Assembly: GCF_000373365.1 (NCBI RefSeq)
Contig: NZ_KB891208.1
Location: forward strand, 310,001 to 374,000
DNA length: 64,000 bases
Reading direction: 5' to 3'
DNA from: Parafrankia discariae
Lineage (GTDB): Bacteria > Actinomycetota > Actinomycetes > Frankiales > Frankiaceae
The translations under genes were made by a program, and so were the position numbers. The notes beneath the pieces were generated by a model. The model saw only the letters and a program-made list of their open reading frames with translations. It had not been told where the DNA came from and ran no database searches. Position 1 is the first letter of the stretch. Each line of letters opens with the position of its first letter. This document shows positions 59,812 through 63,318 of this stretch, in pieces.

Positions 59812-62800
59812 GTGAGGTCACGGTTCTTTGCCGACACCCACGTGCACTCCAGGTACTCGCGGGCCTGTAGCCGCGACTGCGACCTGGAGCATCTGGCGTG
59901 GTGGGCGGCCCGAAAAGGCATCCGCGTCGTCGGGACCGGCGACTTCACCCATCCGGCCTGGTCGCAGGAGCTCGCGACCAAGCTGGTGCCGGCGGAGCCG
60001 GGACTGTTCCGGCTGCGTCCCGACCTGGAGCGCGACGTGCTCGCGACGCTGCCCGCGTCGTGCCGCACCGCGACCCGATTCATGATCTCCACGGAGATCT
60101 CCACCATCTACAAGCGAGGCGACCGTACAAGGAAGGTTCATCACCTCCTCTACGCGCCCGATCGCGAATCGGCCGGTCGGATCACGTCCGCACTGGCCCG
60201 AATCGGCAATCTCTCCGCAGACGGACGGCCGATCCTCGGCCTGGACTCCCGCGATCTGCTCGAGATCACGCTCGGCGCAGGCGAGGGCTGTTACCTGATC
60301 CCCGCGCACGTGTGGACGCCGTGGTTCGCCGTGCTGGGCTCGAAATCGGGGTTCGACGCCGTCGAGGACTGCTACGTCGACCTCGCCGAGCACGTCTTCG
60401 CCCTGGAGACGGGTCTCTCGGCGGACCCGGAGATGTTCTGGCGGATCTCCGGGCTGGACCGCTACCGGCTGGTCAGCAACTCCGACGCGCACTCCCCGCC
60501 GATGCTCGGTCGGGAGGCTACCGCGTTCACCTGCGAGCCCGACTACTTCTCGATCCTCAGTGCGCTGCGCACCGGTGACGGGTTCGACGGCACCGTCGAG
60601 TTCTTTCCCGAGGAGGGGAAGTACCACCACGACGGCCACCGCAAGTGCGGGGTGGCGCTGACGCCCGAGCAGACCCGCGCGGTCAACGGCATCTGCCCCG
60701 AGTGTCATCGTTCGCTCACGGTGGGTGTTCTCAATCGGGTGGACACGCTCGCCGACCGCACGGAGGTGCACCGTCCAAACACGGCAGGTGACGTCACCTC
60801 GCTGGTGGCGCTGCCCGAGATCGTCGGCGAGATCCTCGGGGTGGGGCCGAAGAGCAAGTCGGTGGCGACGCAGGTCAGCACGCTCGTCTCCCGGCTCGGA
60901 CCCGAGCTCGGCATCCTCTCGGACGTCCCGCTGGACGCGATCGCCGAGGTGGGCTCGTCGACGCTGGTCGAGGGCATCGGACGCCTGCGCCGGGGCGAGG
61001 TGATCCGCCAGGCCGGTTTCGACGGCGAGTACGGCGTGATCCGGCTCTTCCAGCCCGGCGAGCTCACCGCCGACGCCGGCACGCTGTTCGACCTCGACAC
61101 TCCCGGCCCCGTGCCGACGCCGCCGGCCGGCACCCGCCGGGGACGCGGTCCCGGCCGGAGCGGTACCGCGCTCGCCCCCGGCGCCACCGAGGTCACCGAG
61201 GTCCCCGAAGCCGGCAAGGCCACTGGAGCAACCGAGGCCGGCAAGGCAGCTGAAGCCACTGAAGCCACCAGGATTGCCGAAGCCGCCCGAGTCACCGAAG
61301 CCGGCGAACTGTTCCCGGGCGATGCCGCGGTGGAGAGTGGCGGCCCACCATCGGTGCTCGACGGGCTTGATCCCGACCAGCGGCGCGCGGCCGAGCACGT
61401 CGGCGGGCCGATGCTGGTCCTCGCCGGCCCCGGCACCGGGAAGACCCGCACGCTCGTGCACGCCATCGCGCACCGGGTGCGTGAGCTCGCTGTGCCCGCG
61501 GAGCAGTGCCTGGCGGTGACGTTCACCCGCCGCGCTGCCGGCGAGCTGCGCGAACGGCTCGACGTCCTGCTCGCGCCGGGCCCGGCCGGGACGCGCGCTG
61601 AGCGCATGCCCACGGACGGCACGGCGACGGAGGCGGCGTCCACGAGCGGTGGGGCCGCCGCCGAGGCACCGGAGGACACGGGGCGGCCCGGTGCCGGCGT
61701 GCTGGCGACGACGTTCCACGGCCTCGGCCTGCTGATCATCCGGGAACGGCACGTGGCGCTCGCGCGTGCGCCGCGGGTGCGGGTGGCCGACGACGCCGTC
61801 CGTGCGGAGCTGATCGACGAGGCGATGCACGGCGCCGACAGCCCGCAGGCGCGGCGCCGGGCCGCGGTCGAGCTGGCCGAGCTCAAACGGCAGCGCGCGC
61901 TGGGGCGTCCCCACCGGGAGCACCCGCTCGCCGGGGTGCTCGCCCGCTACGACGCCGCGCTACGGGATCGGAACATGGTCGACCTCGACGACCTGCTCAC
62001 GCTGCCGCTGGGGCTGCTGCGGTCGAACCCGGACCTGGCGGCCGAGTACCAGCGGCGCTGGCGGCACGTCTGGGTCGACGAGTTCCAGGACATCGACGAG
62101 GTGCAGTACGGCCTGCTGCGCGAGCTCTGCCCGCCCGCGGCCGACCTGTGCGCGATCGGCGACCCCGACCAGGCGATCTACAGCTTCCGGGGCGCCGAGG
62201 TCGGCTTCTTCCTGCGCTTCGGGCAGGACCGTCCGGGCGCCCGGGAGGTCTCGCTCACCCGTAACTACCGCTCGACGCCGACCATCGTCGGCGCCGCGCT
62301 GGACGCCATCGCCCCCACCACCTTCGTGCCCGACCGCGAGCTGCGCGCGGTGACCGGCCTGGACGAGGACGGACCGGTCGTCGTCCGCCAGTGCGCGAGC
62401 GAGGCGGAGGAGGCCATCGCCGTGGCCGACCTGATCGAACAGGCCCTCGGCGGAACCTCGTTCCACTCGCTCGACTCGGGCGTGGACGGCTCGGAGCGGG
62501 GCCGGCTGTCGTTCGCCGACATCGCGGTGCTCTACCGGACGGCGCGCCAGGCCGAGCCGGTGATGGACGCGCTGGTGCGCCGGGGGTTCCCGTTCCGTCA
62601 GCACGCCCACACGCCGCTCGCGGACGTCCCGGCCGTCGCCGCGGTGCTCGCCCAGCTGCGCGAGCGCCGGGACACCGTGCCCCGCACGGTCACCGCGCTG
62701 CTGCGGGACGCGGCCGCGCGGCTCGCCGACCTGGCGGCGACCGCCGGCACCGAGCTCGCCGGTCTCGGGGACCAGCCCGAGGCCGCCGCCGGGTCCGGTG

Positions 62801-63318
62801 TCGCCACCCAGCCCGGCGCGGCCCCCGCGGGACGGCCGCCGAGCGAGGCGGAGATCCGGCGCGCCGCGGAGCTGCTCGCCCCCGCGGCCGCCGTGGCCGG
62901 GGATGATCTCGACGCGTTCCTCACCGCGGTGACCCTGGCGACGGAGGTCGACGGGCTCGACCCGCGGGCGGACCGGATCTCCCTGCTCACGCTGCACGCG
63001 TCCAAGGGCCTGGAGTTCGACCTCGTCATCATCGTCGGCTGCGAGGACGGCCTGCTGCCGCTGCGCTGGGGTGGGTCGAGCCCGTCGGCCGACGCCGAGG
63101 CGGAGGAACGGCGGCTGTTCTTCGTCGGCATGACCCGGGCCCGCCGCCAACTCGTCCTCACCCATGCCGCCCGGCGCCGGCGCGGCGGCGACCTGGCCGA
63201 CACCGGCCCGTCGGCGTTCCTCGCCGCCATCGACGGGCGTCATCTCGACAAGCGCACGCGCGCCACGCCCGCCGCCGCGCGCCGCCGGGCGACCGGGCGG
63301 CAGCTCCGCCTGATGTGA
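59812..63318 (+). CDS. endonuclease Q-like PHP nuclease fused to a UvrD helicase
   Basis: A 1,168-residue fusion. Residues 1-420 match the TIGR00375/EndoQ family: PHP motif FADTHVHSRYSRACSRDCD (His10, His12), GTGDFTHPAW, STEISTIYKRGDRTRKVHHL, SNSDAHSPPMLGRE, a zinc site with Cys279, Cys295 and Cys298, and GVGPKSKSVATQVSTLV. EndoQ enzymes nick DNA 5' to deaminated bases. After an Ala/Glu linker (about 425-510) follows a complete SF1A helicase: Walker A at 539-546, VDEFQDIDE near 756, GDPDQAIYSFRGAE, LTLHASKGLEFD near 1062 and VGMTRARRQ. The GTG has no ribosome site and may be leaderless. Confidence 0.88.
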   Translation: MRSRFFADTHVHSRYSRACSRDCDLEHLAWWAARKGIRVVGTGDFTHPAWSQELATKLVPAEPGLFRLRPDLERDVLATLPASCRTATRFMISTEISTIYKRGDRTRKVHHLLYAPDRESAGRITSALARIGNLSADGRPILGLDSRDLLEITLGAGEGCYLIPAHVWTPWFAVLGSKSGFDAVEDCYVDLAEHVFALETGLSADPEMFWRISGLDRYRLVSNSDAHSPPMLGREATAFTCEPDYFSILSALRTGDGFDGTVEFFPEEGKYHHDGHRKCGVALTPEQTRAVNGICPECHRSLTVGVLNRVDTLADRTEVHRPNTAGDVTSLVALPEIVGEILGVGPKSKSVATQVSTLVSRLGPELGILSDVPLDAIAEVGSSTLVEGIGRLRRGEVIRQAGFDGEYGVIRLFQPGELTADAGTLFDLDTPGPVPTPPAGTRRGRGPGRSGTALAPGATEVTEVPEAGKATGATEAGKAAEATEATRIAEAARVTEAGELFPGDAAVESGGPPSVLDGLDPDQRRAAEHVGGPMLVLAGPGTGKTRTLVHAIAHRVRELAVPAEQCLAVTFTRRAAGELRERLDVLLAPGPAGTRAERMPTDGTATEAASTSGGAAAEAPEDTGRPGAGVLATTFHGLGLLIIRERHVALARAPRVRVADDAVRAELIDEAMHGADSPQARRRAAVELAELKRQRALGRPHREHPLAGVLARYDAALRDRNMVDLDDLLTLPLGLLRSNPDLAAEYQRRWRHVWVDEFQDIDEVQYGLLRELCPPAADLCAIGDPDQAIYSFRGAEVGFFLRFGQDRPGAREVSLTRNYRSTPTIVGAALDAIAPTTFVPDRELRAVTGLDEDGPVVVRQCASEAEEAIAVADLIEQALGGTSFHSLDSGVDGSERGRLSFADIAVLYRTARQAEPVMDALVRRGFPFRQHAHTPLADVPAVAAVLAQLRERRDTVPRTVTALLRDAAARLADLAATAGTELAGLGDQPEAAAGSGVATQPGAAPAGRPPSEAEIRRAAELLAPAAAVAGDDLDAFLTAVTLATEVDGLDPRADRISLLTLHASKGLEFDLVIIVGCEDGLLPLRWGGSSPSADAEAEERRLFFVGMTRARRQLVLTHAARRRRGGDLADTGPSAFLAAIDGRHLDKRTRATPAAARRRATGRQLRLM

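Follow-up and report, generated by a model that had tools for sequence, protein, structure and literature searches.

The 64,000 nucleotides of Parafrankia discariae DNA considered here (contig NZ_KB891208.1, positions 310,001 to 374,000; the window below) carry, near one end, a gene for a single chain that joins a nuclease of the endonuclease Q (EndoQ) family to a UvrD/PcrA-like SF1A helicase and ends in a motif of the type that binds the beta sliding clamp. Judging from the sequence, we think it fairly probable that the product acts on deaminated bases or abasic sites as a nick-and-peel enzyme tethered to the clamp, that is, an excision-initiating enzyme built of three modules. The features are listed below in order of position; counts out of 69 refer to a full alignment of the window protein with 68 of 80 related loci (locus labels such as L055 are ours), and the reference for residues of the nuclease is the EndoQ of P. 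furiosus (PfuEndoQ).

59812..63318 (+): whole gene, 1168 residues, GTG start, TGA stop at 63316-63318
59812..61071 (+): EndoQ-family half, residues 1-420 (PHP nuclease, zinc finger and C-terminal part), from profile, structure and alignment
59833..59847 (+): PHP motif I, D8-H12 (DTHVH), from alignment to PfuEndoQ; H10 in 67/69, H12 in 69/69
60094..60096 (+): E95, equivalent to PfuEndoQ E76 (essential there); 69/69
60139..60141 (+): H110, equivalent to PfuEndoQ H84 (essential there); 69/69
60307..60309 (+): H166, equivalent to PfuEndoQ H139 (zinc ligand and pocket wall); 69/69
60412..60420 (+): G201-S203, equivalent to PfuEndoQ G169-S171 (pocket); 69/69
60484..60492 (+): PHP motif IV, D225-H227 (DAH), from alignment to PfuEndoQ and of the 69 fusions
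60637..60705 (+): zinc-finger ligands H276, C279, C295 and C298; 69/69
61072..61335 (+): disordered low-complexity linker, residues 421-508; predicted local confidence (pLDDT) below 50, hardly conserved
61339..63231 (+): UvrD/PcrA-like SF1A helicase, residues about 510-1140, from Pfam, NCBIfam and structure matches
61423..61446 (+): Walker A, residues 538-545 (AGPGTGKT); G543, K544 and T545 in 69/69
62077..62091 (+): motif II, D756-D760 (DEFQD), from the alignment of 69
62590..62976 (+): shortened 2B region, between the LYRT site and motif V; residues 982-1003 form a disordered insert; from landmark spacing and pLDDT
62989..63018 (+): motif V, residues 1060-1069 (TLHASKGLEF), from the alignment of 69
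63115..63141 (+): motif VI, residues 1102-1110 (LFFVGMTRA), from the alignment of 69
63301..63315 (+): beta-clamp-type motif, residues 1164-1168 (QLRLM); Q1164 and L1167 in 69/69 over a variable background

That nuclease and helicase form one chain had been claimed in an earlier note made from the letters of this DNA, and the claim is borne out by the uninterrupted frame at 59812-63318 and by the persistence of the chain in relatives. In all six genomes of the genus, our own included, a single open frame runs from the EndoQ half into helicase motif II (these loci stop short of motif V), and the fusion is thus not an accident of one assembly. The 12 kept loci that lie outside the full alignment are those that end with their contig (L020, L034, L083, L039), those whose frame is broken inside the helicase (L045, L064), those with EndoQ and helicase in different frames (L072, L092) and those with no helicase (L046, L067, L088, L093). 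Across the 69 aligned sequences the pairwise identities of the EndoQ half and of the helicase half correlate closely (Pearson 0.95, 2346 pairs).

The assignment of the PHP half to the EndoQ family, also made in the earlier note, holds by sequence and by structure. Residues 7-413 match PfuEndoQ (5zb8) with E 3.2e-41 in phmmer at 28-30% identity, the TIGR00375 profile matches with E 1.6e-36, and the corresponding part of an AlphaFold2 model superposes on chain 5zb8_B with a Z score of 41.9 (379 residues aligned, target of 398, 2.6 A; Foldseek and VIA-align). Neither a loss of the PHP ligands nor profile hits to a different PHP family, the two outcomes that the note had named as fatal to its reading, were found: the metal-ligand positions D8, H12, D44, E95, H110, H111, H166, D225 and H227 are invariant in 69/69, and H10 is kept in 67/69. 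The Asp of PfuEndoQ equivalent to D225 is Asn in the 7k30/7k31 crystal sequences. The zinc cysteines that the note had seen are part of a four-ligand site kept in all 69 fusions; three of the ligands are indeed Cys, but the other is His (H276), so that the site reads His-Cys-Cys-Cys where PfuEndoQ has Cys at the H276 position as well, the zinc site of archaeal EndoQ being made of four cysteines.

More telling for function are the residues of the base pocket. The substitutions E76A, H84A and H139A are each reported to abolish PfuEndoQ activity, and H139, G169 and S171 are described in the same review as excluding T and A from the pocket (PMC8307549). All five have identical counterparts (E95, H110, H166, G201 and S203) in 69/69 fusions. 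This identity is the strongest sign in the sequence that uracil and hypoxanthine are still distinguished from normal bases by the fusion; it raises the reading of the gene as a repair enzyme for deaminated bases and lowers that of an enzyme devoted to abasic (AP) sites. Uracil, hypoxanthine and AP sites are reported substrates of EndoQ from P. furiosus, T. kodakarensis, M. acetivorans and B. pumilus (PMC6202378, PMC8438529), and incision takes place on the 5' side of the lesion and leaves a 3'-OH (PMC4357722, PMC8438529).

The helicase half belongs to the UvrD/PcrA/Rep group. Profile searches of both halves, which the earlier note had proposed, gave 126.5 bits for TIGR00375 and 198 and 105 bits for the helicase models PF00580 and PF13361. 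PcrA, UvrD and Rep structures are matched as well, and in the AlphaFold2 model residues about 510-1150 superpose on UvrD of D. radiodurans (4c2u) with a Z score of 45.9 (551 aligned, target of 658, 3.5 A); the structure-match list is dominated by helicases and is uninformative on other folds. The equivalog cut-offs of NCBIfam are all missed (PcrA 309 bits against 911.2, Rep 284.7 against 951.45, UvrD 223.1 against 1144.45). Since only Pfam helicase models pass their cut-offs among the Pfam and NCBIfam scans, annotation tends to miss the EndoQ half.

The earlier note had seen a complete SF1A helicase with all its motifs. The motifs are there, with each residue examined in motifs I, II, III, IV, V and VI invariant in 69/69 fusions, but the 2B subdomain is partly missing. 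The stretch that separates the LYRT site from motif V measures 104-161 residues in the fusions (median 123, over the 62 rows that match all landmark patterns) and 153 in the window protein, against 204 in the PcrA-like frame of the same genome (L111). The GIG motif present in L111 is not conserved in the fusions: of the 63 fusions in which both landmarks are present, one (L058) has a literal GIG in that stretch and two others have GLG or GVG, one of these being the window protein, where it lies at residue 984 within the disordered insert. The 2B subdomain of UvrD-family enzymes is reported to touch duplex DNA and hold the monomer back, and its deletion to activate the Rep monomer (PMC13238157). 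Since 2B inhibits such monomers and is shortened here, a self-active motor is plausible by analogy. Some copies seem to have a smaller 1B subdomain too; in L090 (Catellatospora) motifs I and II are only 119 residues apart.

The third module is short but strongly kept. A QxxL sequence lies within the last 17 residues in 69/69 fusions and within the last five in 64/69, where shuffling of the last 30 residues leads one to expect 0.76/69. Its Q and L never vary, whereas conservation stays at or below 59% at each of the 18 positions before the motif; the fifth motif position is Phe in 30/69, Ile in 18 and Leu in 16. A C-terminal QLxLF is the beta-clamp-binding consensus (PMC4549789). Archaeal EndoQ is reported to end in a PCNA-interacting (PIP) box through which PCNA is bound and cutting stimulated, and the same study drew attention to beta-type motifs close to the C-terminus of bacterial EndoQ (PMC4858679). 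On this pattern the tail should bind the beta sliding clamp, and the fusion appears to keep the clamp-motif logic of archaeal EndoQ with a helicase inserted between nuclease and motif. Nine other genes of the genome itself have a PF00580 match; among these, the five frames that were read to their stop include none that ends in QxxL plus a hydrophobic residue, and one of them (L112) ends in QDQLR.

How the two halves sit relative to each other is a separate matter. The earlier note had proposed a structure prediction of their interface; AlphaFold2 models of the window protein (input alignment of 69 sequences, mean pLDDT 82) and of a compact relative (L055) predict no fixed arrangement or interface, with modest predicted template modeling scores of 0.64 and 0.53, respectively. 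The linker is disordered in both, and shorter in L055, at residues 417-462. The two halves are therefore best seen, on these models, as tethered and not docked.

In the scheme that we infer for the substrate, the coupling of nick to unwinding, the choice of strand, clamp binding and patch repair, the EndoQ half would locate a deaminated base (uracil or hypoxanthine) or an abasic site and incise the backbone 5' of it, so that a 3'-OH remains. The flexibly tethered SF1A motor would then load at the nick on the intact strand and move 3'-5', cross the lesion and peel the damaged strand away as a 5' flap in the direction in which a polymerase extends. The known polarity fits this order of nicking and then unwinding, which the earlier note had raised, because an EndoQ nick lies 5' of the lesion and an SF1A motor running 3'-5' on the intact strand would head toward it. 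With its shortened 2B, a monomer may unwind without MutL-like activation, and the QLxL[FLIM] tail would keep the enzyme on the beta sliding clamp, either at the fork or where the new 3'-OH lies, while a polymerase fills in behind. More tentatively, and with distinctly less confidence, we suggest an old, widely inherited repair route that stands beside uracil-DNA glycosylase (UDG) with base excision repair and beside endonuclease V (EndoV), in which a clamp-tethered nickase with a 2B-reduced, self-active motor would pass its 3'-OH to a polymerase on the same clamp.

Several observations weigh against a nick-and-peel repair enzyme and need to be set beside it. The TIGR00375 match stays below the curated cut-off of 326.6 bits; this cut-off is also missed by five other fusions and one helicase-less copy, and two of the three TIGR00375 matches in 14 control genomes exceed it. 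We therefore call the half EndoQ-family and not a TIGR00375 equivalog. The first His of the PHP HxH (H10) is Gln in 2/69, the alphaproteobacterial fusions L049 and L056, and the window tail ends in Met where the consensus has Phe, a residue present in only 30/69. The absence of a predicted interface in either model counts in the same direction, as does the existence of copies with no helicase in the available DNA (L046, L067, L088, L093, L125-L128 and L130), which indicates that some can do without the motor. Nor is there an evident niche: the genome itself has three UDG-family matches and one EndoV, and UDG is present in 20/20 genomes with a gene of the EndoQ clade (hand-chosen loci, 16 fused and 4 helicase-less). 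Among the 22 neighbourhood clusters listed (frames of at least 90 residues, blastp at 1e-12), the only neighbours conserved across phyla belong to widespread families (ABC ATPase, SDR) and lie at distances that vary; none points to a pathway.

Some of these points feed other explanations. An enzyme mainly for AP sites or oxidised pyrimidines, working in nucleotide incision repair with deaminated bases as side substrates because UDG and EndoV handle those, would suit the presence of UDG in all 20 genomes and of EndoV in our own, as well as the report that PfuEndoQ cuts an abasic-site analogue in duplex DNA better than uracil or hypoxanthine and also cuts dihydrouracil and 5-hydroxyuracil (PMC11354406). 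We nevertheless hold it unlikely: an AP-only enzyme would not need the uracil/hypoxanthine pocket residues that are kept in 69/69, and the characterised EndoQ homologues are described as acting on both bases (PMC8438529). It is a little less likely still that the fusion is one of convenience, with EndoQ and helicase acting independently and tied together for co-expression, as the flexible linker, the lack of a predicted interface and the helicase-less copies nested in the clade might suggest; the fused state occurs in several phyla with correlated divergence of its halves, and the clamp-type motif stands at the end of the helicase side.

We regard as improbable a role in clamp-linked removal of a strand at forks on targets other than damage, for example in a strand-discrimination or mismatch-type pathway. 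The terminal clamp-type motif speaks for such a role, and the clade lies far from the lone EndoQ of L007 (branch of 1.57) with one zinc ligand changed to His, but the EndoQ fold, ligands and pocket residues are all kept. Defence against phages with uracil-containing or otherwise modified DNA seems to us very improbable. It is prompted by a review that reports the proposal of a possible additional antiviral role for bacterial (Bacillus) EndoQ, and by the resemblance of the helicase half to the GajB models of Gabija in PADLOC. That resemblance is one of the shared SF1A fold (229.8 bits for the best GajB model, 309 for PcrA); the clusters listed include no shared defence neighbourhood, and the gene is inherited by phylum. 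The absence of the EndoQ half from phage and plasmid collections weighs more against a mobile gene than against defence. GajA is not among the two adjoining genes that were scanned, which encode an AAA_11/AAA_12-MTES_1575 protein and an aminotransferase.

Three further ideas about the fusion were discarded. One, put forward in the earlier note, was that a high-GC genome suffers more cytosine deamination; it is countered by the 15/68 aligned relatives that lie in DNA below 50% GC and by matches that are commoner in the phylum of the low-GC Gastranaerophilales (47/194) than in our own (9/296). Replacement of a missing UDG or EndoV is another, and it fails on the presence of UDG in 6/6 genomes of the genus and in the 20 others and of EndoV in our own genome; the nick-and-peel enzyme that we favor would accordingly add a repair route and not replace one. 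Carriage on a mobile element is the last: a search at E 1e-5 of 50,697 phage records and 72,556 plasmid records finds nothing for the EndoQ half, and no plasmid matches the whole protein over 80% of its length, in a collection from which records of this or a very near genome may be absent.

The spread of the fusion is wide and patchy. TIGR00375 matches occur in all six genomes of the genus and in 9/296 genomes of the phylum sample, seven of them strong; a survey across actinobacteria had been suggested in the earlier note, and here it finds our own locus, L008, L009, L011 and L012 fused, with L010 cut by a contig end, L007 alone, and L013 and L014 weak. In the phylum of the Gastranaerophilales genome 46 of the 47 matches are strong; the 47 comprise 36 frames of more than 900 residues, a further fused copy at a contig end, nine frames 418-449 residues long and one weak match. 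With length as a proxy for fusion, ten frames exceed 1000 residues among 24/199 matches in the phylum of a Pirellulaceae genome, and another ten among 18/398 in that of an alphaproteobacterium. A named genome collection gave at least 590 matching stretches, of which the best 80, ranked by similarity to an 11-sequence alignment (10 fused, with L010 cut), were kept, so that the fused share among them is biased upward: 73 are fused, with one frame that reaches motif II or beyond, 1 is undecided, 2 have EndoQ and helicase adjacent in different frames, and 4 are without a helicase in the available DNA. By record titles, with many metagenome bins, this distinct EndoQ clade, mostly helicase-fused among the 80 kept loci, is found in Actinomycetota, Gastranaerophilales, Elusimicrobiota, Planctomycetota and Pseudomonadota, and further in Myxococcota, Acidobacteriota, Binatota and Verrucomicrobiota.

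In a tree of 96 EndoQ domains the labelled sequences group by phylum: the labels change 9 times, close to the minimum of 8 and far from the shuffled mean of 33.6. The tree comes from a quick search with support by the Shimodaira-Hasegawa-like approximate likelihood ratio test (SH-aLRT) only, leaves 34/92 branches open, has PfuEndoQ as a very long outgroup and 21 unlabelled rows, and is without Bacillus or Desulfovibrio EndoQ. The helicase-less L046, L067, L088, L125-L128 and L130 fall inside the fused clade and L093 at its poorly supported base; the lone EndoQ of L007, the sole further bacterial EndoQ included, falls outside it. Read most simply, the fusion is old, has been lost here and there, and has shed its helicase several times; transfers are also possible. 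In L046 (Streptosporangium), L088 (Devosia), L093 and L067 the EndoQ is 60-65% identical to that of the window, with no helicase in the available DNA, and L088 and L093 retain linker-like residues after it (LLFD, LLFT), as if a helicase had been lost. In Gastranaerophilales roughly nine or ten consecutive A mark the EndoQ/helicase junction. This run is read through in the fused L055, L066, L070, L074, L084, L086 and L087, and the frame breaks just after it in L072, L092, L131 and L133, where the helicase is in another frame; either slippage, with EndoQ alone made alongside the fusion, or a mistake in sequencing or assembly could account for this.

Compared with EndoQ itself (PfuEndoQ 5zb8/7k30, TIGR00375, COG1379), the fusion shares the 400-residue fold, PHP ligands, pocket, zinc finger and C-terminal sliding-clamp motif logic, but differs in its low identity, its His-Cys-Cys-Cys zinc site, its score below the TIGR00375 cut-off and the SF1A helicase between nuclease and tail. 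With UvrD, PcrA and Rep it has the motor motifs and most of the fold in common, whereas its 2B has a median deficit of about 80 residues and no conserved GIG, a clamp-type tail is present and the three equivalog cut-offs are missed. The genome's own L111 presumably has a Tudor-like C-terminal region, which the fusion is without. AddAB, RecBCD, AdnAB and Gabija resemble the arrangement proposed here in that a nuclease and an SF1A motor act together, but they use other nuclease folds on other substrates (DNA ends, phage DNA) and are not lesion-specific nickases. EndoQ of Bacillus and Desulfovibrio, with the beta-clamp-type motif mentioned above, is described without a helicase, and EndoQ and UvrD are treated separately in PMC7776575, PMC8307549 and PMC7690668. 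In the open literature on endonuclease Q, PHP/UvrD fusions, TIGR00375 and COG1379, a scope that most subscription papers fall outside, we found, judging by titles and excerpts, no published description of an EndoQ-helicase fusion.

If the proposed activity is real, one chain would answer how EndoQ nicks are repaired, which a review calls elusive (PMC8438529), and repair of deaminated bases in bacteria would be linked to the replication clamp, as the PCNA box links it in archaea. The shortened 2B would also offer a natural test of the claim that this subdomain restrains UvrD-type monomers. It would, to our knowledge, be the first case of an SF1A helicase that carries its own lesion nickase. Protein-architecture databases very probably contain the fusion as a domain combination.

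Around the gene, surroundings are shared among the actinobacteria L018, L019 and L024, and likewise among Micromonosporaceae, counted as one group. The divergent neighbour in the window, at 51742-59466 on the reverse strand, encodes 2574 residues with AAA_11/AAA_12 helicase domains, an MTES_1575 restriction-type nuclease domain and long low-complexity repeats. The GTG start and about 20 bases 5' of it are kept in the six same-genus copies, our own included. Directly 5' of the start codon, at 59790-59811, lies GATGCGACAACATACGCATC, which contains a 6-base inverted repeat and is kept in the same six copies and in part in Frankia (L016); it is possibly a promoter or operator.

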